DNA from: Sipunculus nudus
Taxonomy: Eukaryota; Annelida; Sipuncula; Golfingiida; Sipunculidae
Length of the DNA: 64,000 bases
Assembly: GCA_026874595.1 (NCBI GenBank)
Contig: CM049319.1
Coordinates: 40,713,973 to 40,777,972, forward strand
Reading direction: 5' to 3'
Part shown: one piece after another, positions 8,816 to 28,699 of the stretch
Layout: the number at the start of each line of letters is the position of its first letter
How positions within the stretch are numbered: the first letter of the stretch is position 1
Position numbers and translations under genes: made by a program
The notes under the pieces: model-generated
Seen by the model: the letters and a program-made list of their open reading frames with translations, nothing else
Database searches by the model: none
What the model was told of the DNA's origin: nothing

Positions 8816-9579
8816 TTGCGACCCGACTCAACTCAGCGGGTCAAAAACCGTTTAGTTGAGTCGCGTCGCAACGTGTATGCGTAAAAACGGACGCGACTCA
8901 ACCAGGGTCGGAACCAGTCGGCGTCAGTTTTTGGTTTCTGACAGTATCAGAAAAAAAATCATGTCCAGTTGAGTCGCGTCGTTCAGAAGTACAGTCAGCA
9001 ACCAATCACATCCACGTCTCTGACCACATGAGTACCTCGGTCATGTGATTCTCTGGGTCAAAATCATATGGTGCAGAGAAAAGACAAGATTATATTACGT
9101 TAGCACTGTTTGCGCATTATAGATCTGTATACTCATTGTTCCTTGTGCAATGGCAGCATAATATCAGTATGCTTCATGTTCTCAGATGTAGAATATATAA
9201 TGTATATCACAGGACATTGAATAATATTGTTTAGACTTAAATTAAAGTATATCAAACAAAAATTATTTAGCTATGGGACTGGGAAAACTAAAATGGCGTT
9301 ATATAGATATGTATATGTGTACACTAACTAATAAGATATGCATCAAGGACTTTGCTTTCATATGGCAAAAGCTTATCTCAGTTTTGTTCATTTGAATGTA
9401 CCGCCTCAGCCGTCAATCCTGTTGAGTTGAGTCGGGTCGTTACGTGTATGCACCCCAGCTGTCGTCAGTCTGCAGGGTCAGAAAAACTCGGAGAAACTGT
9501 AGAAAACTCAAGGAAACCTGTTCAGTCAGGCCCAGTTGGGTTGAGTCGGGTCGCGTCGCAACCCGTATGCCGGGCTTAA

Positions 9580-10631: not shown

Positions 10632-13158
10632 TAGAAACAGTAAAGGACTCACCGGGTATACCATTTAGAGTTCCTGGGTGACTCCTGACAGGAGAGGACT
10701 GGCCGGGTATACTGGTTGGAGTTCCTGGGTGACTCCTGACAGGACAAGACTGGTCAAGTTTACTGGTTGGAGTTCCCGGGTGACTCGTGACAGGAGAGTA
10801 CTGGCCTGTTATACTGGTTGGAGTTCCTGGGTGACTCCTGACAGGACAGGACTGGTCAAGTTTACTGGTTGGAGTTCCTGGGTGACTCATGACAGGAGAG
10901 TACTGGCCGGTTATACTGGTTGGAGTTCCTGGATGACTCCTGACAGGACAGGGCTGGGCAAGTTTACTGGATGGAGTTCCAGGGTGACACGTGACAGGAG
11001 AGTACTGCACGGTTATACTGGTTGGAGTTCCTGGGTGACTCCTGACAGGACAGAACTGGCCGGGTATACTGGTTAGAGTTCCAGGGTGACTCCTTACAGG
11101 ACAAACCTGGCTGGGTATTCTGTTTGGAGTTCTTGGTTGACTCATGACAGAAGAGAAGTGGCCGGTTGTACTGGTTGGAGTTCCTTGGGGACTGGTGACA
11201 GGAGAGGACTGACGGGTATACTGGTTGGAGTTCCTGGGTGACTCCTGACAGGACAGGACTGGTCAAGTTTACTGATTGGAGTTCCTTGGTGACTCCTGAC
11301 AAGACAGGACTGGCCGGGTATACTGGTTGGAGTTCCTTGGTGACTCCTGGCAGGACAGGACTGGCCGGGTATACTGGTTAGAGTTCCTTGGTGACTCGTG
11401 ACAGGACATACTGGCCGGGTATACTGGTTAGAGTTCCAGGGTGACTCCTGACAGGACAGGACTGGTCAAGTTTACTGGATGGAGTTCCTGGTTGACTCCT
11501 GGCAGAAGAGAACTGGCCGGTTGTACTGGTTGGAGTCCCTTGGGGACTGGTGACAGGAGAGTACTGGCCGGTTATACTGGTTTGAGTTCCTGGGTGACTC
11601 CTGACAGGACAAGACTGGTCAAGTTTACTGGTTGGAGTTCCTGGGTGACTCGTGACAGGAGAGTACTGGCCGGTTATACTGGTTGGAGTTCCTGGATGAC
11701 TCCTGACAGGACAGGACTGGTCAAGTTTACTGGTTGGAGTTCCAAGGTGACTCGTGACAGGAGAGTACCGGCCGGTTATACTGGTTGGATGTCCTGGATG
11801 ACTCCGGACAGGACAGGACTGATCAAGTTTACTGGATGGAGTTCCAGGTTGACACGTAACAGGAGAGTACTGGACGGTTATACTGGTTGGAGTTCCTGGG
11901 TGACTCCTGACAGGACAGGACTGGTCAAGTTTACTGGTTGGAGTTCCTGGGTGACTCCTGACAGGACAGGACTGGTCTAGTTTACTGGTTGAGTTCTTGG
12001 GTAACTCCTGACAGGACAGGACTGGTCAGGTTTACTGGTTGGAGTTCCAAGGTGACTCGTGACAGGAGAGAACTGGTCAAGTTTACTGGTTGGAGTTCCT
12101 GGGTGACTCGTGACAGGAGAGTACTGGCCGATTATACTGGTTGGAGTTCCTGAGTGATTCGTGACAGGACATTACTGGTCAAGTTTACTGGTTGGAGTTC
12201 CAAGGTGACTCGTGACAGGAGAGGACTGATCAAGTTTACTGGTTCGAGTTCCTGGATGACTCCTGACAAGACAGGACTGGTCAAGTTTACTGGTTGTAGT
12301 TCAAAGGTGACTCCTGACAGGAGAGTAAAGGTCCGTTATACTGGTTGAAGTTCCTGGGTAACTCCTGACAGGACAGGACTGGTCAAGTTTACTGGTAGGA
12401 GTTCCTGGGTGACTCGTGACAGGACAGGACTGGTCAAGTTTACTGGTAGGAGTTCCTGGGTGACTCCTGACAGGACAGGACTGGCCGGGTATCCTTGTTG
12501 GAGTTCCTGGGTGGCTCCTGACAGGACAGGACTGGTCAAGTTTACTGGTTGGAGTTCCTGGGTGACTCATGACAGGACAGGACTGGCCAATTTTACTGGT
12601 TGGAGTTACTGAGTGACTCGTGACAGGACAGGACTGGGCAAGTTTACTTGTTGGAGTTCCTGGGTTACTCCTGACAGGAGAGAACTGGCCGGGTATTCTG
12701 GTTGGAGTTTCTGCGTGACTCGTGACAGGACTGGGCAAGTTTACTTTTTGGAGTTCCTAGGTGACTCCTGACAGGAGGGAACTGGCCGGGTATACTGGTT
12801 GGAGTTCCTGAGTGACTCATGACAGGACTTGGCAAGTTTACTTGTTGGAGTTCCTGGGTTACTCCTTACAGGAGAGAACTGGCCGGGTACACTGGTTGGA
12901 GTTCCTCAGTGACTCATGACAGGACTGGGCAAGTTTACTTGTTGGAGTTCCTGGGTGACTCCTGACAGGAGAGAACTGGCCGGGTATACTGGTTGGAGTA
13001 CCTGAGTGACTCGTGACAGGACTCGGCAAGTTTACTTGTTGGAGTTCCTGGGTGACTCCTGACAGGAGAGAACTGGCCGGGTATACTCGTTGGAGTTCCT
13101 GGTTGACATGTATCAGGAAAGGACCTTCGGGGTGTAATGATTTGACTTCCTGGGTGCA
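10632..13158. repeat. 51-bp minisatellite, about 49 units, in the intron after the first visible exon
   Basis: The period is exactly 51 bp (GTGACTCCTGACAGG at 10678 and 10729). Units share GGAGTTCCTGGGTGACTC and a CTGACAGGA box. They fall into two main classes at the middle: GGCCGGGTATACTGG and GGTCAAGTTTACTGG. The classes often alternate, giving a 102-bp dimer in places. Because 51 is a multiple of 3, both strands show long open frames with a 17-residue repeat. I read these as by-products: they have no plausible gene context and the units vary freely at all codon positions. The array starts about 115 bp after the donor and ends about 260 bp before the next exon. Confidence 0.95.
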
Positions 13159-13421: not shown

Positions 13422-13561
13422 ATTCAGCGACGTCTGAAGTGGTCATGAATGAGAACTCGGATCGAGAACCCATCTTCTACCTTTACAACATGCAGGAGAG
13501 CGGCCACTTCAAACCGGCTTACTCTTTTGGCTACATTGTCAATGGGACAAAGGTGGACAAG
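13422..13561 (+). CDS. Receptor guanylate cyclase exon: last beta-rich part of the ectodomain
   Basis: The exon follows an ATTATTACAG acceptor and ends in a strong AAG|GTAAGA donor (phase 0). Joined to the previous exon it reads Asn-Ser-Ala-Thr-Ser-Glu-Val-Val-Met-Asn-Glu-Asn-Ser-Asp-Arg-Glu-Pro, then an Ile-Phe-Tyr-Leu-Tyr-Asn-Met stretch and a Gly-His-Phe-Lys-Pro segment. This matches the end of the ANF-receptor domain, where family members show a G-x-(V/L)-x-(I/M)-(D/N)-x-x-G-D-R-E pattern followed by a D-F-x-L-type strand. A possible N-glycosylation site (Asn-Gly-Thr) lies near the exon end. It joins in phase to the exon at 24427, across an intron of about 10.9 kb that is mostly a 35-bp minisatellite. 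An apparent ORF starting upstream at 13388 is intronic sequence read through the acceptor. Confidence 0.85.
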
Positions 13562-13799: not shown

Positions 13800-16700
13800 C
13801 ATTATCCTGTAGTAGTTTACATCGTTAGTTTAGGCATCCTCCGGTAATAGTTAACAGGGTTAGTGTAGGCATCCTCTAGTAGTAGTTAACATGGTTAGTG
13901 TAGGCATCCTCTAGTAGTAGTTAACATGGTTAGTGTAGGCATCCTCTAGTAGTAGTTAACATGGTTAGTGTAGACATCCTCTAGTAGTAGTGAACATGGT
14001 TAGTGTAGGCATCCTCTAGTAGTAGTTAACATGGTTAGTGTAGGCATCCTCTAGTAGTAGTTAACATGGTTAGTGTAGGCATCCTCCGGTAATAGTTTAC
14101 ATGGTAAGTGTAGGCATTCTCCTGTAGTAATTTACATGATCAGTGTAGGCATCCTCTTGTAGTAGTTAACATGGTCAGTGTAGGCATCCTCCGGTAATAG
14201 TTAACATGGTAAGTGTAGGCATCCTCTAGTAGTAGTTAACATGGTTAGTGTAGGCATCCTCCGGTAATAGTTAACAGGGTTAGTGTAGGCATCCTCTAGT
14301 AGTAGTTAACATGGTTAGTTTAGGCATCCTCCGGTAATAGTTAACAGGGTTAGTGTAGGCATCCTCCTGTAGTAGGTTTTCATGGTTAGTTTAGGCATCC
14401 TCTTGTAGTAGTAAACATGGTTAGTGTAGGCATCCTCCGGTAATAGTTAACATGGTTAGTGTAGGCATCCTCTAGTAGTAGTTAACATGGTTAGTGTAGG
14501 CATCCTCCGGTAATAGTTAACAGGGTTAGTGTAGGCATCCTCTAGTAGTAGTTAACATGGTTAGTTTAGGCATCCTCCGGTAATAGTTAACAGGGTTAGT
14601 GTAGGCATCCTCCTGTAGTAGGTTTTCATGGTAAGTTTAGGCATCCTCTTGTAGTAGTTAACATGGTTAGTGTAGGCATCCTCCGGTAATAGTTAACATG
14701 GTTAGTGTAGGCATCCTCTAGTAGTAGTTAACATGGTTAGTGTAGGCATCCTCCGGTAATAGTTAACAGGGTTAGTGTAGGCATCCTCTAGTAGTAGTTA
14801 ACATGGTTAGTTTAGGCATCCTCCGGTAATAGTTAACAGGGTTAGTGTAGGCATCCTCCTGTAGTAGGTTTTCATGGTTAGTTTAGGCATCCTCTTGTAG
14901 TAGTTAACATGGTTAGTGTAGGCATCCTCCGGTAATAATTAACATGGTTTGTGTAGGCATCCTCTAGTAGTAGTTAACATGGTTAGTGTAGGCATCCTCC
15001 GGTAATAGTCAACAGGGATAGTGTAGGCATCCTCTAGTAATAGTTAACATGGTTAGTGTAGGCATCCTCCGGTAATAGTTAACAGGGTTAGTGTAGGCAT
15101 CCTCTAGTAGTAGTTAACATGGTTAGTGTAGGCATCCTCCGGTAATAGTTAACAGGGTTAGTGTAGGCATCCTCTAGTAGTAGTTAACGTGGTTAGTGTA
15201 GGCATCCTCCGGTAATAGTTAACAGGGTTAGTGTAGGCATCCTCTAGTAGTAGTTAACGTGGTTAGTGTAGGCATCCTCCGGTAATAGTTAACAGGGTTA
15301 GTGTAGGCATCCTCTAGTAGTAGTTAACATGGTTAGTGTAGGCATCCTCCGGTAATAGTTAACAGGGTGAGTGTAGGCATCCTCTAGTAGTAGTTAACAT
15401 GGTTAGTGTAGGCATCCTCTAGTAGTAGTTAACATGGTAAGTGTAGGCATCCTCCGGTAATAGTTGACAGGGTTAGTGTAGGCATCCTCTAGTAGTAGTT
15501 AACATGGTTAGTGTAGGCATCCTCCGGTAATAGTTAACAGGGTTAGTGTAGGCATCCTCTAGTAGTAGTTAACATGGTTAGTGTAGGCATCCTCTAGTAG
15601 TAGTTAACATGGTTAGTGTAGGCATCCTCCGGTAATAGTTAACAGGGTTAGTGTAGGCATCTTCTAGTAGTAGTTAACATGGTTAGTGTAGGCATCCTCC
15701 GGTAATAGTTAACAGGGTTAGTGTGGATATCCTCTAGTAGTAGTTAAGATGGTTAGTGTAGGCATCCTCCGGTAATAGTTAACAGGATTAGTGTAGGCAT
15801 CCTCTAGTAGTAGTTAACATGGTTAGTGTAGGCATCCTCTAGTAGTAGTTAACATGGTTAGTGTAGGCATCCTCCGGTAATAGTTAACAGGGTTAGTGTA
15901 GGCATCCTCTAGTAGTAATTAACATGGTTAGTGTAGGCATCCTCCGGTAATAGTTAACAGGGATAGTGTAGGCATCCTCTAGTAGTAGTTAACATGGTTA
16001 GTTTAGGCATCCTCCGGTAATAGTTAACAGGGTTAGTGTAGGCATCCTCCTGTAGTAGGTTTTCATGGTTAGTTTAGGCATCCTCTTGTAGTAGTAAACA
16101 TGGTTAGTGTAGGCATCCTCCGGTAATAGTTAACAGGGTTAGTGTAGGCATCCTCCGGTAATAGTTAACAGGGTTAGTGTAGGCATCCTCTAGTAGTAGT
16201 TAACAGGGTTAGTGTAGGCATCCTCCGGTAATAGTTAACATGGTTAGTGTAGGCATCCTCTAGTAGTAGTTAACATGGTTAGTTCTAGGCATCCTCCGGT
16301 AATAGTTAACAGGGTTAGTGTAGGCATCCTCTAGTAGTAGTTAACATGCTTAGTGTAGGCATCCTCCGGTAATAGTTAACAGGGTTAGTGTAGGCATCCT
16401 CTAGTAGTAGTTAACATGGTTAGTGTAGGCATCCTCTAGTAGTAGTTAACATGGTTAGTGAAGGCATCCTCTAGTAGTAGTTAACATGGTTAGTGTAGGC
16501 ATCCTGTGGTAATAGTTAACAGGGTTAGTGTAGGCATCCTCTAGTAGTAGTTAACATGGTTAGTTCTAGGCATCCTCCGGTAATAGTTAACATGGTTAGT
16601 GTAGGCATCCTCTAGTAGTAGTTAACATGGTTAGTGTAGGCATCCTCCGGTAATAGTTAACAGGGTTAGTGTAGGCATCATCTAGTAGTAGTTAACATGG

Positions 16701-19700
16701 TTAGTGTAGGCATCCTCCGGTAATAGTTAAAATGGTTTGTGTAGGGATCCTCCTGTAGTAGGTTTTCATGGTTAGTTTAGGCATCCTCTTGTAGTAGTAA
16801 ACATGGTTAGTGTAGGCATCCTCCGGTAATAGTTAACATGGTTAGTGTAGGCATCCTCTAGTAGTAGTAAACATGGTTAGTGTAGGCATCCTCAGGTAAT
16901 AGTTAACATGGTTAGTGTAGGCATCCTCTAGTAGTAGTAAACATGGTTACTGTAGGCATCCTCCGGTAATAGTTAACATGGTTAGTGTAGGCATCCTCTA
17001 GTAGTAGTTAACATGGTTAGTGTAGACATCCTCCGGTAATAGTTAACAGGGTTAGTGTAGGCATCCTCTAGTAGTAGTTAACATGCTTAGTGTAGGCATC
17101 CTCCGGTAATAGTTAACATGGTTAGTGTAGGCATCCTCTAGTAGTAGTTAACATGGTTAGTGTAGGCATCCTCCGGTAATAGTTAACAGGGTAAGTGTAG
17201 CCATCCTCTAGTAGTAGTTAACATGGTTAGTGTAGGCAACCTCCGGTAATAGTTAACAGGGTTAGTGTAGGCATCCTCTAGTAGTAGTAAACATGGTTAG
17301 TGTAGGCATCCTCCGGTAATAGTTAACATGGTTAGTGTAGGCATCCTCTAGTAGTAGTTACCATGGTTAGTGTAGGCATCCTCCGGTAATAGTTAACATG
17401 GTTAGTGTAGGCATCATCTAGTAGTAGTTAACATGGTTAGTGTAGGCATCCTCCGGTAATAGTTAACATGGTTAGTGTAGGCATCCTCCGGTAATAGTTA
17501 ACATGGTTAGTGTAGGCATCCTCTAGTAGTAGTAAACATGGTTAATGTAGGCATCCTCCGGTAATTGTTAACATGGTTAGTGTAGGCATCCTCTAGTAGT
17601 AGTTAACATGGTTAGTGTAGGCATCCTCCGGTAATAGTTAACAGGGTTAGTGTAGGCATCCTCTAGTAGTAGTTAACATGCTTAGTGTAGGCATCCTCCG
17701 GTAATAGTTAACAGGGTTAGTGTAGGCATCCTCTAGTAGTAGTTAACATGGTTAGTGTAGGCATCCTCTAGTAGTAGTTAACATGGTTAGTGTAGGCATC
17801 CTCCGGTAATAGTTAACAGGGTTAGTGTAGGCATCCTCTAGTAGTAGTTAACAGGGTTAGTGTAGGCATCCTCCGGTAATAGTTAACAGGGTTAGTGTGG
17901 ATATCCTCTAGTAGTAGTTAAGATGGTTAGTGTAGGCATCCTCCGGTAATAGTTAACAGGGTTAGTGTAGGCATCCTCTAGTAGTAGTTAACATGGTTAG
18001 TGTAGGCATCCTCCGGTAATAGTTAACAGGGTTAGTGTAGGCATCCTCTAGTAGTAGTTAACATTGTTAGTTTAGGCATCCTCCGGTAATAGTTAACAGG
18101 GTTAGTGTAGGCATCCTCTAGTTGTAGTTAACATGGTTAGTGTAGGCATCCTCTAGTAGTAGTTAACATGGTTAGTTTAGGCATCCTCCGGTAATAGTTT
18201 ACAGGGTTAGTGTAGGCATCCTCTAGTAGTGGTTAACATGGTTTGTGTAGGCATCCTCCTGTAGTAGGTTTTCATGGTTAGTTTAGGCATACTCTTGTAG
18301 TAATAAACATGGTTAGTGTAGGCATCCTCCGGTAATAGTTAACATGGTTAGTGTAGGCATCCTCTAGTAGTAGTTATCATGGTTAGTGTAGGCATCCTCC
18401 GGTAATAGTTAACAGGGTTAGTGTAGGCATCCTCTAGTAGTAGTTAACATGGTTAGTGTAGGCATCCTCCGGTAATAGTTAACAGGGTTAGTGTAGGCAT
18501 CCTCTAGTAGTAGTTAACATGGTTAGTTTAGGCATCCTCCGGTAATAGTTAACATGGTTAGTGTAGGCATCCTCTAGTAGTAGTTAACATGGTTAGTGTA
18601 GGCATCCTCCGGTAATAGTTAACAGGGTTAGTGTAGGCATCCTCTAGTAGTAGTTAACATGGTTAGTGTAGGCATCCTCCGGTAATAGTTAACAGGGTTA
18701 GTGTAGGCATCCTCTAGTAGTAGTTAACATGGTTAGTTTAGGCATCCTCCGGTAATAGTTAACAGGGTTAGTGTAGGCATCCTCTAGTTGTAGTTAACAT
18801 GGTTAGTGTAGGCATCCTCTAGTAGTAGTTAACATGGTTAGTTTAGGCATCCTCTTGTAGTAGTAAACATGGTTAGTTTAGGCATCCTCCGGTAATAGTT
18901 AACAGGGTTAGTGTAGGCATCCTGTAGTAGTAGTTAACATGGTTAGTTTAGGCATCCTCCGGTAATAGTTAACATGGTTAGTGTAGGCATCCTCTAGTAG
19001 TAGTTAACATGGTTAGTGTAGGCATCCTCCGGTAATAGTTAACAGGGTTAGTGTAGGCATCTTCTAGTAGTAGTTAACATGGTTAGTGTAGGCATCCTCC
19101 TGTAATAGTTAACAGGGTTAGTGTAGGCATCCTCTTGTAGTAGTTAACATGGTTAGTTTAGGCATCCTCTTGTAGTAGTAAACATGGTTAGTTTAGGCAT
19201 CCTCCGGTAATAGTTAACAGGGTTAGTGTAGGCATCCTGTAGTAGTAGTCAACATGGTTAGTGTAGGCATCCTCTAGTAGTAGTTAACATGGTTAGTGTA
19301 GGCATCCTCTGGTAATAGTTTACATGGTAAGTGTAGGCATTCGCCTGTAGTAATTTACATGATTAGTGTAGGCATCCTCTTGTGGTAGAAAACATGGTAA
19401 GTGTAGGCATCCTCTAGTAGTAGTTAACATGGTTAGTGTAGGCATCCTCAAGTAGTAGTTAACATGGTTAGTGTAGGCATCCTCCGGTAATAGTTAACAG
19501 GGTTAGTGTAGGCATCCTCTAGTAGTAGTTAACATGGTTAGTGTAGGCATCCTCTAGTAGTAGTTAACATGGTTAGTGTAGGCATCCTCCGGTAATAGTT
19601 AACATGGTTAGTGTAGGCATCCTCTAGTAGTAGTTAACATGGTTAGTGTAGGCATCCTCCGGTAATAGTTAACAGGGTTAGTGTAGGCATCCTCTAGTAG

Positions 19701-22447
19701 TAGTTAACATGGTTAATTTAGGCATCCTCCGGTAATAGTTAACAGGGTTAGTGTAGGCATCCTCTAGTAGTAGTTAACATGGTTAGTGTAGGCATCCTCT
19801 AGTAGTAGTTAACATGGTTAGTGTAGGCATCCTCCGGTAATAGTTTACATGGTAAGTGTAGGCATTCTCCTGAAGTAATTTTCATGATCAGTGTAGGCAT
19901 CCTCTTGTAGTAGAAAACATGGTGAGTTTAGGCATCCTCCGGTAATAGTTAACAGGGTTAGTGTAGGCATCCTCTAGTAGTAGTTAACATGGTTAGTGTA
20001 GGCAGGCTCCGGTTATAGTTAACAGGGTTAGTGTAGGCATCCTCTAGTAGTAGTTTTACATGGTTAGTTTAGGCATCCTCTAGTAGTAGTTAACATGGTT
20101 AGTGTAGGCATCCTCCGGTAAACGTTAACAGGGTTAGTGTAGGCATTCTCTAGTAGTAGTTAACATGGTTAGTGTAGGCATCCTCTAGTAGTAGTTAACA
20201 TGGTTAGTGTAGGCATCCTCCGGTAATAGTTTACATGGTTAGTGTAGGCATCCTCCGGTAATAGTTTACATGATCAGTGTAGGCATCCTCTTGTAGTAGA
20301 AAATATGGTTAGTTTAGGCATCCTCCGGTAATAGTTAACAGGGTTAGTGTAGGCATCCTCTAGTAGTAGTTAACATGGTTAGTGTAGGCATCCTCCGGTA
20401 ATATTTAACAAGGTTAGTGTAGGCATCCTCTAGTAGTAGTTTTACATGGTTAGTTTAGGCATCCTCTAGTAGTAGTTAACATGGTTAGTGTAGGCATCCT
20501 CTAGTAGAAGTTAACAGGGTTAGTGTAGGCATCCTCTAGTAGTAGATTACATGGTTAATGTAGGCATCCTCTAGTAGTAGTTAACATGGTTAGTGTAGGC
20601 ATCCTCCGGTAATAGTTAACAGGGTTAGTGTAGGCATCCTCTAGTAGTAGTTAACATGGTTAGTGTAGGCATCCTCTAGTAGTAGTTAACATGGTTAGTG
20701 TAGGCATCCTCCGGTAATAGTTTACATGGTAAGTGTAGGCATTCTCCTGTAGTAATTTACATGATCAGTGTAGGCATCCTCTTGTAGTATAAAACATGGT
20801 GAGTTTAGGCATCCTCCGGTAATAGTTAACAGGGTTAGTGTAGGCATCCTCTAGTAGTAGTTAACATGGTAAGTGTAGGCAGGCTCCGGTAATAGTTAAC
20901 AGGGTTAGTGTAGGCATCCTCTAGTAGTAGTTTCACATGATTAGTTTAGGCATCCTCTAGTAGTAGTTAACATGGTTAGTGTAGGCATCCTCCGGTAAAC
21001 GTTAACAGGGTTAGTGTAGGCATCCTCTAGTAGTAGTTAACATGGTTAGTGTAGGCAGCCTCTAATAGTAGTTAACATGGTTAGTGTAGGCATCCTCCGG
21101 TAATAGTTTACATGGTTAGTGTAGGCATCCTCCGGTAATAGTTTACATGATCAGTGTAGGCATCCTCTTGTAGTAGAAAACATGGTTAGTTTAGGCATCC
21201 TCCGGTAATAGTTAACAGGGTTAGTGTAGGCATCCTTTAGTAGTAGTTAACATGGTTAGTGTAGGCATCCTCCGGTAATATTTAACAAGGTTAGTGTAGG
21301 CATCCTCTAGTAGTAGTTTTACATGGTTAGTTTAGGCATCCTCTAGTAGTAGTTAACATGGTTAGTGTAGGCATCCTCTAGTAGAAGTTAACATGGTTAG
21401 TGTAGGCATCCTCTAGTAGTAGATTACATGGTTAATGTAGGCATCCTCTAGTAGTAGTTAACATGGTTAGTGTAGGCATCCTCCGGTAATAGTTTACATG
21501 ATAAGTGTAGGCATTCTCCTGTAGTAATTTACATGATCAGTGTATGCATCCTCTTGTAGTAGAAAACATGGTTAGTTTAGGCATCCTTCGGTAATAGTTA
21601 ACAGGGTTAGTGTAGGCATCCTCTAGTAGTAGTTAACATGGTTAGTGTAGGCATCCTCCGGTAATAGTTAACAGGGTTAGTGTAGGCATCCTCTTGTAGT
21701 AGTTAACGTGGTTAGTTTATGCATCCTCCGGTAATAGTTAACAGGGTTAGTGTAGGCGTCCTCTAGTAGTAGTTAACGTGGTTAGTGTAGGCATCCTCTA
21801 GTAGTAGTTAACATGGTTAGTGTAGGCATCCTCCGGTAATAGTTTACATGGTAAGTGTAGGCATTCTCCTGTAGTAATTTACATGATCAGTGTAGACATC
21901 CTCTTGTAGTAGAAAACATGGTTAGTTTAGGCATCCTCCGGTAATAGTTAACATGGTTAGTGTAGGCATCCTCTAGAAGTAGTTAACATGGTTAGTGTAG
22001 GCATCCTCTAGTAGTAGTTAACATGGTTAGTGTAGGCATCCTCCTGTAGTAGTTTTACATGGTTAGTGTAGGCATCCTCTAGTAGAAGTTAACATGGTTA
22101 GTTTAGGCATCCTCTAGTAGTAGTTAACATGGTTAGTCTATGCATCCTCTAGTAGTAGTTAACATGGTTAGTGTAGGCATCCTCCTGTAGTAATTTACAT
22201 GATCGGTGTAGGCATCCTCTTGTAGTAGTTAAAATGGTTAGTGTAGACATTCTCCTGTAGTAATTTACATGATCAGTGTAGGCATCCACTTGTAGTAGTT
22301 AACATGGTTAGTGTAGGCATCCTCCTGTAGTAGTAAAAATGGTTAGTGTAGGCATCCTCCTGCAGTAGTAAACACGGTAACTGTCGTTAACAGGGGTAGT
22401 GTAGGCATGCTCTTGTTGTAGAAAACATGGTTTGTGTAGGCATCCTC
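13800..22447. repeat. 35-bp minisatellite, about 247 units, in the intron after the second visible exon
   Basis: Units have the form TAGGCATCCTC, a variable box, GTTAAC, then ATGGTTAGTG or AGGGTTAGTG. Two main types alternate over long stretches: CTAGTAGTAGTTAACATGG and CCGGTAATAGTTAACAGGG. This gives a 70-bp dimer. Rarer types (CTGTAGTAGGTTTTCATGG, CTTGTAGTAGTAAACATGG, CTCCTGTAGTAATTTACATG) recur as sets and mark higher-order blocks, for example a set near 14368, 14614 and 14859. A few one-base insertions (TAGTTCTAGG near 16283) are present. There are no unique spacers, so this is not a CRISPR array. Confidence 0.95.
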
Positions 22448-24426: not shown

Positions 24427-24532
24427 GAAATAAAGAAGATCCGTGATATACGCTGGGGTGACGGAAGTGTTGGCCCTGAGAACGCCCCCGCAGATGAACC
24501 TGAATGTGGCTACAACAACGAGAGGTGCCCAA
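24427..24532 (+). CDS. Receptor guanylate cyclase exon: juxtamembrane extracellular stalk with the conserved Cys pair
   Basis: The exon begins after a TTTTTTAAATAG acceptor in phase 0 and encodes 35 codons plus one base. It shows an Ile-Arg-Trp-Gly-Asp-Gly motif, then Pro-x-x-Ala-Pro-Ala-Asp-Glu-Pro-Glu-Cys-Gly-Tyr-Asn-Asn-Glu-Arg-Cys-Pro. Receptor guanylate cyclases carry the equivalent W-x-x-G-x-x-P-P-D-x-P-x-C-G-F-x-N-x-x-C just outside the membrane, where the two cysteines form a small disulphide loop needed for signalling. The donor is taken as CCAA|GTCAGT at 24533, because this keeps the second Cys and gives phase 1. The leftover A then completes a Thr codon with the CA that opens the next exon. 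An alternative donor a few bases upstream (AG|GTGCCC) would lose the second cysteine and is less likely. Confidence 0.85.
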
Positions 24533-24739: not shown

Positions 24740-24821
24740 CACCCCTGGCTGTTTACATCGGCCCAGCTGTCTCCGTGTTCGTGTTGATCGTGGCACTGAT
24801 TATTGGAATTCTGGTGTACAG
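24740..24821 (+). CDS. Receptor guanylate cyclase exon: transmembrane helix
   Basis: This 82-bp exon follows a TTTATCGTTTCAG acceptor and ends TACAG|GTATGA (phase 2). It encodes Pro-Leu-Ala-Val-Tyr-Ile-Gly-Pro, then an unbroken hydrophobic run of about 18 residues rich in Val, Ile, Leu and Ala, ending in Leu-Val-Tyr-Arg. This is a single-pass transmembrane helix with a basic stop-transfer residue on the cytoplasmic side. The Cys loop, one helix and a charged cytoplasmic start in three consecutive small exons are the arrangement expected of a receptor guanylate cyclase. The 207-bp intron upstream and the 1,023-bp intron downstream are free of large arrays. Confidence 0.87.
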
Positions 24822-25844: not shown

Positions 25845-25938
25845 AAATTACAAGTACGAGCAAGAAGTGAAGAGCATGGGCTGGAAGTTTGCATACAATG
25901 AACTGTGCCTGGGAAGGGGGAAGAAAACAGGTAGCGAG
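25845..25938 (+). CDS. Receptor guanylate cyclase exon: start of the cytoplasmic kinase-homology region; its 3' end is the seed of the 52-bp array
   Basis: After a CTGTTTTCAG acceptor, the first A completes an Arg codon begun in the helix exon. The exon then reads Asn-Tyr-Lys-Tyr-Glu-Gln-Glu-Val-Lys-Ser-Met-Gly-Trp-Lys-Phe-Ala-Tyr-Asn-Glu-Leu. This fits the charged linker and the W-x-(I/V)-x-(Y/W)-x-(E/D)-L start of the kinase-homology region in natriuretic-peptide-type cyclases. Two 5' splice sites are possible: ACAG|GTAGCG after 25930 (phase 1) and GCGAG|GTCAGT after 25938 (phase 0). I prefer the second, because GTCAGT is also the hexamer at the 24533 donor and it scores better at +5 and +6. 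The downstream exon is outside the window, so the phase cannot be tested. Without splicing, five more codons (Glu-Val-Ser-Asp-Gln, counting the final Glu of the exon) lead to TGA at 25951-25953. Confidence 0.75.
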
Positions 25939-28699
25939 GTCAGTGATCAATGAACTCATCCTGGGAAGGGGGAAAAAACAGGTAGCGAGGTCAGTGATCA
26001 ATGAACTCATCCTGGGAAGGGGGAAGAAAACAGGTAGCGAGGTCAGTGATCAATGAACTCATCCTGGGAAGGGGGAAGAAAACAGGTAGCGAGGTCAGTG
26101 ATCAATGAACTCATCCTGGGAAGGGGGAAGAAAACAGGTAGCGAGGTCAGTGATCAATTAACTGAGCCTGGGAAGGGGGAAGAAAACAGGTAGCGAGGTC
26201 AGTGATCAATGAACTCATCCTGGGAAGGGGGAAGAAAACAGGTAGCGAGGTCAGTGATCAATGAACTCATCCTGGGAAGGGGGAAGAAAACAGGTACCGA
26301 GGTCAGTGATCAATGAACTCATCCTGGGAAGGGGGAAGAAAACAGGTAGCGAGGTCAGTGATCAATGAACTCATCCTGGGAAGGGGGAAGAAAACAGGTA
26401 GCGAGGTCAGTGATCAATGAACTGAGCCTGGGAAGGGGGAAGAAAACAGGTAGCGAGGTCAGTGATCCATGAACTGAGCCTGGGAAGGGGGAAGAAAACA
26501 GGTAGCGAGGTCCGTGATCAATGAACTCAGCCTGGGAAGGGGGAAGAAAACAGGTAGCGAGGTCAGTGATCAATGAACTCATCCTGGGAAGGGGGAAGAA
26601 AACAGGTAGCGAGGTCAGTGATCAATGAACTCATCCTGGAAGGGGAAGAAAACAGGTAGCGAGATCAGTGATCAATGAATTCAGCCTGGGAAGGGGGAAG
26701 AAAACAGGTAGCGAGGTCAGTGATCAATGAACTCATCCTGGGAAGGGGGAAGAAAACAGGTAGCGAGGTCAGTGATCAATGAACTGAGCCTGGGAAGGGG
26801 GAAGAAAACAGGTAGCGAGGTCAGTGATCAATGAACTGAGCTTGGGAAGGGGGAAAAAAACAGGAAGCGGGGTCAGTGATCAATGAACTGAGCCTGGGAA
26901 GGGGGAAGAAAACAGGTAGCGAGGTCAGTGATGAATAAACTGATCCTGGGAAGGGGGAAGAAAACAGGTAGCGAGGTCCGTGATAAATGAACTCATCCTG
27001 GGAAGGGGGAAGAAAACAGGTAGCGAGGTCAGTGATCAATGAACTAATTCTGGGAAGGGGGAAGAAAACAGGTAGCGAGGTCAGTGATCAAAGAACTGAG
27101 CTTGGGAAGGGGGAAGAAAACAGGTAGCGAGGTCAGTGATCAATGAACTCAGCTTGGGAAGGGGGAAGAAAACAGGTAGCGAGGTCAGTGATCAATGAAC
27201 TCAGCTTGGGAAGGGGGAAGAAAACAGGTAGCGAGGTCAGTGATCAATGAAGTCATCCTGGGAAGGGGGAAGAAAACAGGTAGCTAGGTCAGTGATCAAT
27301 GAACTCAGCCTGGGAAGGGGGAAGAAAACAGGTAGCGAGGTCAGTGATCAATGAACTGAGCCTGGGAAGGGGGAAGAAAACAGGCAGCGAGGTCAGTGTT
27401 CAATGAACTCATCCTGGGAAGGGGAAGAAAACAGGTAGCGAGGTCAGTGATCAATGAACTCATCCTGGGAAGGGGGAAGAAAACAGGTAGCGAGGTCAGT
27501 GATCAATGAACTCATCCTGGGAAGGGGGAAGAAAACAGGTAGCGAGGTCAGTGATCAATTAACTGAGCCTAGGAAGGGGGAAGAAAACAGGTAGCGAGGT
27601 CAGTGATCAATGAACTCATCCTGGGAAGGGGGAAGAAAACAGGTAGCGAGGTCAGTGATCAATGAACTCATCCTGGGAAGGGGGAAGAAAACAGGTAGCG
27701 AGGTCAGTGATCAATGAACTCATTCTGGGAAGGGGGAAGAAAACAGGTAGCGAGGTCAGTGATCAATGAACTCATCCTGGGAAGGGGGAAGAAAACAGGT
27801 AGCGAGGTCAGTGATCAATGAACTGAGCCTGGGAAGGGGAAGAAAACAGGTAGCGAGGTCAGTGATCCATGAACTGAGCCTGGGAAGGGGGAAGAAAACA
27901 GGTAGCGAGGTCCGTGATCAATGAACTCATCCTGGGAAGGGGGAAGAAAACAGGTAGCGAGGTCAGTGATCAATGAACTCATCCTGGGAAGGGGGAAGAA
28001 AACAGGTAGCGAGGTCAGTGATCAATGAACTCATCCTGGAAGGGGAAGAAAACAGGTAGCGAGGTCAGTGATCAATGAACTCATCCTGGGAAGGGGGAAG
28101 AAAACAGGTAGCGAGGTCAGTGATCAATGAACTGAGCCTGGGAAGGGGAAGAAACAGGTAGCGAGGTCAGTGATCCATGAACTGAGCCTGGGAAGGGGGA
28201 AGAAAACAGGTAGCGAGGTCCGTGATCAATGAACTCATCCTGGGAAGGGGGAAGAAAACAGGTAGCGAGGTCAGTGATCAATGAACTGAGCTTGGGAAGG
28301 GGGAAAAAACAGGTAGCGGGGTCAGTGATCAATGAACTGAGCCTGGGAAGGGGGAAGAAAACAGGTAGCGAGGTCCGTGATGAATAAACTGATCCTGGGA
28401 AGGGGGAAGAAAACAGGTAGCGAGGTCCGTGATAAATGAACTCATCCTGAGAAGGGGGAAGAAAACAGGTAGCGAGGTCAGTGATCAATGAACTAATTCT
28501 GGGAAGGGGGAAGAAAACAGGTAGCGAGGTCAGTGATCAAAGAACTGAGCTTGGGAAGGGGGAAGAAAACAGGTAGCGAGGTCAGTGATCAATGAACTCA
28601 GCTTGGGAAGGGGGAAGAAAACAGGTAGCGAGGTCAGTGATCAATGAACTTAGCTTGGGAAGGGGGAAGAAAACAGGTAGCGAGGTCAGTGATCAATGA

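Follow-up and report, generated by a model that had tools for sequence, protein, structure and literature searches.

The locus and its gene

Here we describe a stretch of 64,000 nucleotides from the genome assembly of the sipunculan Sipunculus nudus (the window; contig CM049319.1 of the 1.43-Gb assembly GCA_026874595.1, G000:C14:40713973-40777972), which carries exons of a predicted NPR1-type receptor guanylate cyclase gene and, beginning on the border of the fourth of these exons, a very large 52-bp minisatellite. The adjoining 30 kb was fetched for the end of the array, and a gap-free 212 kb of C14 was read overall; positions past the window, called extended below, carry on its numbering.

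The gene model comprises 14 exons over 212 kb and covers the receptor from the juxtamembrane region outside the cell through the cyclase domain. All 13 modelled introns have GT/AG ends, and together the exons encode 635 amino acids in one stop-free frame. Using phmmer, model residues 7-634 align to human-type NPR1 entries (4.4e-151), the alignment starting at NPR1 residue 365, with only the final ectodomain exons covered by the model. Two Pfam domains exceed their cut-offs, PK_Tyr_Ser-Thr (PF07714, 1.4e-36) and Guanylate_cyc (PF00211, 1.2e-46), and the domain order is that of NPR1-type proteins: transmembrane helix, kinase-homology domain, coiled linker (HNOBA, PF07701, at 20.9 bits under its 23.4-bit cut-off) and cyclase. 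Judged by these similarities, the gene is an NPR1-type receptor guanylate cyclase.

The exons around the array all lie on the + strand. Exon 1 (13422-13561), an extracellular receptor part, is recognised by AG/GT borders, a frame open into the next exons and the NPR1 alignment, while the gene model and the same alignment place exon 2 (24427-24532; juxtamembrane extracellular, donor CAA/GTCAGT) and exon 3 (24740-24821; transmembrane helix). Exon 4 (25845-25938), through which the NPR1 alignment passes, encodes the intracellular juxtamembrane part (...LGRGKKTGSE) and ends in a phase 0 donor; exon 5 (AFKTLSQ...), open in phase 0, starts at extended 86764.

A 52-bp array over the exon 4 border

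Within the window, Tandem Repeats Finder (TRF) places a single array of period 52 at 25896-64000, with 736.2 copies and 93% matches. Its first unit (25896-25947, + strand) joins the final 43 nt of exon 4 to the initial 9 nt of intron 4, and the remainder (25948-64000, + strand) continues 22.6 kb past the window edge to C14:40800559 (extended 86587). By wraparound alignment the array totals 60,692 bp and 1,172 units, including the exon-border unit and an eroded final unit; the units have a mean identity of 95.8% to the consensus, fall into 181 distinct sequences and contain no N. Between the final unit (65% identity) and exon 5 lie 176 bp of unique intron, giving an intron 4 of 60,825 bp, against 185 bp in the neighbouring paralog L004. 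Probing with 24 nt centred on the exon 4 donor border yields 29 copies within 1.5 kb, and the resemblance of unit 1 to the array, given its length and its many repetitions, lies far beyond chance. A dispersed repeat was considered and rejected: the matches listed for a 207-bp query (150/160) are all in this C14 gene, a statement about those matches and not a demonstration of genome-wide absence, and 40 of 40 matches of the exon 4/5 peptide likewise fall on C14 within this gene.

The array is a mirage minisatellite, a known kind in which the unit spans an exon-intron border and the copies carry the splice signal. Excerpts from two reports (PMC3087553, PMC3902484) describe such arrays in the Adh3, globin, PGBD5 and troponin C genes of lancelets. 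In the excerpt of PMC3087553, the lancelet globin mirages of Gb6 and Gb9 contain just 3 to 6 units, each 150-160 bp long; like them the array has a homogenised interior and a diverged edge, but unlike these globin cases, the only ones compared for size, it counts 1,172 units over 60.7 kb and sits in a receptor guanylate cyclase gene.

A first-pass annotation of the window had called 25845-25938 a receptor guanylate cyclase exon, thereby implying a donor at 25939, had described a 52-bp unit straddling the exon end and the intron start, and had pointed to the 'mirage minisatellites' of amphioxus. The NPR1 match, the Pfam kinase and cyclase domains and the reading phase to exon 5 agree with the exon call, the 43 exon and 9 intron bases confirm the unit, and the tie to amphioxus matches the excerpted lancelet reports. 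Its figures of about 38 kb and about 730 copies hold for the part inside the window and fall short of the whole array.

The exon 4 border and the copies behind it

The exon 4 donor, GAG/GTCAGT, has its authentic 5' splice site at 25939-25944 (+ strand) and leaves phase 0, which fits exon 5; GTCAGT also serves as the donor of exons 2 and 13. A donor at 25931 (CAG/GTAGCG) was rejected because it would leave phase 1, whereas exon 5 is open in phase 0. In L004, the matching exon ends in ...PFGSQ and is followed by a 185-bp intron (9142-9326) at the equivalent place, in phase 0 and with no array. In all five paralogs with a placeable juxtamembrane exon (L004, L005, L006, L007, L009), a phase-0 donor lies 18-26 residues past a conserved Trp. 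The exon 4 end thus predates the array, if only by comparison with L004. With GT/AG ends at every modelled intron, a single open frame and an NPR1 alignment along the whole model, the exon 4 border is secure; it is a real and conserved exon end, and seeding of the array on it is supported.

The GT of the 5' splice site is kept in 1,081 of the 1,172 units, GAGGTCAGT is exact in 945, and the upstream GT is present in 1,084. An acceptor-like polypyrimidine-AG pattern has no match in the 52-bp array, where the longest pyrimidine run is 6, and array copies as cassette exons were rejected on this ground. The array was also rejected as a coding repeat, since none of the three + frames stays open beyond 77 codons. 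Read-through past the exon 4 donor meets, after VSDQ, an in-frame TGA 13 nt past the border (25951-25953, + strand). From the sequence we infer that the cell splices exon 4 from the first donor, which agrees with the lancelet reports, whose excerpts state that mirages leave regular splicing undisturbed (PMC3087553, PMC3902484).

Growth of the array

Large internal block copies mark the array: for example, a run of 127 units recurs 8,290 bp away at 99.94% identity and one of 80 units 26.6 kb away at 99.93%, and 682 of the 1,172 units belong to blocks of 15 or more units that are duplicated exactly. Identical neighbouring units number 62 of 1,171, a slight excess over the mean of 44.5 (maximum 65) in 1,000 shuffles. 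Because more than half of the units lie in exact blocks and adjacent identity is only slightly above that of the shuffles, the pattern points to recent growth mainly by kilobase block duplication, not by single-unit slippage. The first-pass annotation had proposed growth from the border by slippage or unequal exchange; an origin at the border is supported, while slippage gives way to block duplication as the main recent mode.

Origin of the array and competing explanations

We consider it very likely that this is a border-seeded minisatellite that grew on the intron side, with passenger copies behind a first donor that does the splicing. The founding event would have been a tandem duplication of the 52-bp segment over the exon 4 end and the intron 4 start, followed by expansion on the intron side only. 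Selection would have held the first copy as exon end and 5' splice site, while some 1,171 others piled up as intron, late expansion probably proceeding in multi-kilobase blocks, through unequal exchange or break-induced copying; the copies themselves would be neutral passengers. The first donor is presumably used because exon 4 has the sole pairing 3' splice site and because this donor is nearest and earliest transcribed, and use of a later copy would lead to a stop codon and, probably, nonsense-mediated decay.

Several points weigh against this account. U1 is predicted to pair a little better with the out-of-frame 25931 (-8.2 kcal/mol) than with 25939 (-7.4 kcal/mol), and the array contains 69 AATAAA hexamers, making a truncated product of intronic polyadenylation possible. 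Furthermore, in four of the five paralogs with a phase-0 donor past the conserved Trp, this donor was chosen by eye and the acceptor is not fixed; two further paralogs were left out of that comparison, that on C4 (L008) as not usable and that on C11 (L010) as intronless.

The order of events might also be reversed, an older intronic minisatellite having had its first copy captured later as the end of exon 4. The 43 exon nucleotides common to unit 1 and the array give no direction by themselves, and the exon 4 tail is poorly conserved against NPR1; yet the array-free L004 has its exon end at the equal place and phase, and the tail RGKKTGS resembles RGKRFGS at the equivalent position of the C7 paralog, and we regard a capture as very unlikely. 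It seems highly improbable, too, that the array is functional, whether by offering late donors, intron retention or intronic polyadenylation that yield a cyclase-less receptor, or by providing about 1,000 U1 sites that shield the long intron. Such a receptor would keep the ligand domain, the membrane helix and a short tail, like a clearance receptor of the NPR-C kind. The retained donor GTs and the AATAAA hexamers would suit this idea, as would the stop 4 codons beyond the border, which would leave a short cytoplasmic tail; against it, there is no sign of constraint, variation being spread over the exonic and intronic positions of the unit, and recent block copying explains the similarity between units. 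As to the copy number, an assembler may collapse or multiply kilobase blocks that are 99.9% identical, but an artefact is scarcely credible in the face of 181 distinct units, the absence of N and flanks that are both unique in the 68-Mb contig. The existence of the array is not in doubt; its exact length alone is uncertain.

Other arrays at splice sites

Tandem arrays make up 53% of the gene over the 212 kb, and arrays of 0.9 to 60.7 kb enclose 4 of its 28 borders. Besides the 52-bp array, three further arrays reach splice sites; their units take in no more than about 5 bases of the exon. A 45-bp array over the exon 8 acceptor (120122) ends at extended 120124 (L013:1-6124 and L012:7679-10000); its unit and the exon 8 interior share AGTGGCAGG, with a score reached in 3 of 500 shuffles. 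From the exon 10 donor (176515) runs a 43-bp array of 369 copies (extended 176513-192318), and a 30/90-bp array (extended 192423-193314) ends over the exon 11 acceptor (193311), the intervening 16,796-bp intron consisting of these two arrays plus 104 bp between them. The strict 24-nt border probe recovers none of the three, which are splice-site-abutting arrays and not strict mirages. Read-through at the exon 10 donor meets a stop 2 nt beyond, and neither the 15 upstream TGTCCTAG copies ahead of exon 8 nor the 8 ACACAG copies ahead of exon 11 give an open frame. Because of such stops and closed frames, mis-splicing into the arrays would add no longer protein in the cases tried.

Two other large arrays flank exon 1 in the window, at 13809-22378 (35-bp unit, 244 copies) and 10668-13107 (51-bp unit, 48 copies), 247 and 314 bp from its borders. 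At 1373-2312, a stretch of about 527 bp occurs in tandem twice, and 1415-1930 and 1942-2457 translate identically.

Arrays of at least 300 bp span a border in 4 of 22 cases in the gene, where 0.13 would be expected under random placement in array-free sequence (P 8e-6) and 0.63 under random placement within their own introns (P 0.0012); both figures are inflated, since the first of the four is the 52-bp array itself. The excess is strong if arrays may fall anywhere in array-free sequence, and modest once they are confined to their own introns. A second border array occurs in the C4 paralog (L008), on the acceptor side. Its 90/91-bp units, for which TRF counts 12.8 and 3.5 copies, run out over the beginning of the transmembrane exon; ACAG precedes the exon-like part in 15 of the 15 copies found within 6 substitutions. 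It is a second true border array insofar as the exon is correctly called from its open frame, Cys-rich/hydrophobic sequence and flanking signals; the similarity of this exon to the gene with the 52-bp array is weak (tblastn E 2.0).

These cases raise the idea that in this lineage splice junctions, donor and acceptor alike, may give rise to giant minisatellites again and again and drive intron gigantism, which we think doubtful. Copies of the 24-nt probe lie within 1.5 kb at 1 of the gene's 28 borders, which does not exceed the background of 18 in 400 random array-free positions, and at 1 of 10 probed paralog borders (that on C4). None of 24 paralog exon matches has an array within 60 bp, the C4 border-array exon not being among the 24. 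Moreover, four arrays are listed for 19 kb of the muscle myosin gene, the longest of 94 bp, its exon borders not being mapped.

Observations on other loci

At the muscle myosin locus (L035, C2:44847501-44856500), four matches falling on one part of the head (PF00063, about 109-153) lead us to suspect mutually exclusive exons. Seven exons together score 645 bits against 3i5f, 605-622 against 1dfk, 1dfl, 1b7t, 1kk7, 1qvi, 2ec6 and 2os8, and 597 against Myosin-7; a single exon gives the same order of matches with a gap of only 3 bits. We take the coded entries to be squid, scallop and clam myosins and Myosin-7 to be mammalian, which makes this myosin mollusc-like and not that of a lancelet. The mollusc haemocyanin domain PF14830 had no match, but neither did it have one in any control genome, so that its absence is uninformative. 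The C11 paralog (L010, C11:5892900-5896400, - strand) is an intronless 891-aa frame encoding a receptor guanylate cyclase, whose ectodomain resembles PstS-type phosphate-binding proteins by eye only. Contigs C60-C90 and C123 of this animal assembly are bacterial, carrying several near-equal copies of class III cyclases and cytochrome oxidase; a search for mitochondrial COX1 led to bacterial contigs instead. One bacterial COX1 has nearest named relatives that are just 52-58% identical, and C123, which bears a cbb3 oxidase cluster, represents a second bacterium.

Relation to other systems and implications

Among openly licensed papers, we found no reports of mirages outside lancelets besides human exon-intron boundary repeats, internal tandem repeats in segmental duplications with a mean of about 30-bp units x 4 and 160 bp (excerpt of PMC2812944). 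Like the array described here, these are minisatellites at a border that are able to shift splice sites, but according to that excerpt they are mostly kept in exons or create new introns, whereas here a 60-kb intron results. The Rogers model, as cited in the excerpted PMC3087553, derives intron gain from tandem duplication of AG/GT proto-splice sites; a duplicated splice junction yields spare splice signals in both, but unlike in that model an old phase-0 intron was inflated here and no new intron is shown.

A mirage minisatellite, known in the openly licensed literature excerpted here from lancelets, is thus found in a non-lancelet animal, at 1,172 units and 60.7 kb. The real 5' splice site must be picked ahead of about 1,000 near-identical copies, which makes the gene a natural experiment in how exons are defined, how the nearest donor is chosen and how U1 binds. 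The array also offers a route from a short to a very long intron, from the 185 bp of the neighbouring paralog to 60,825 bp.
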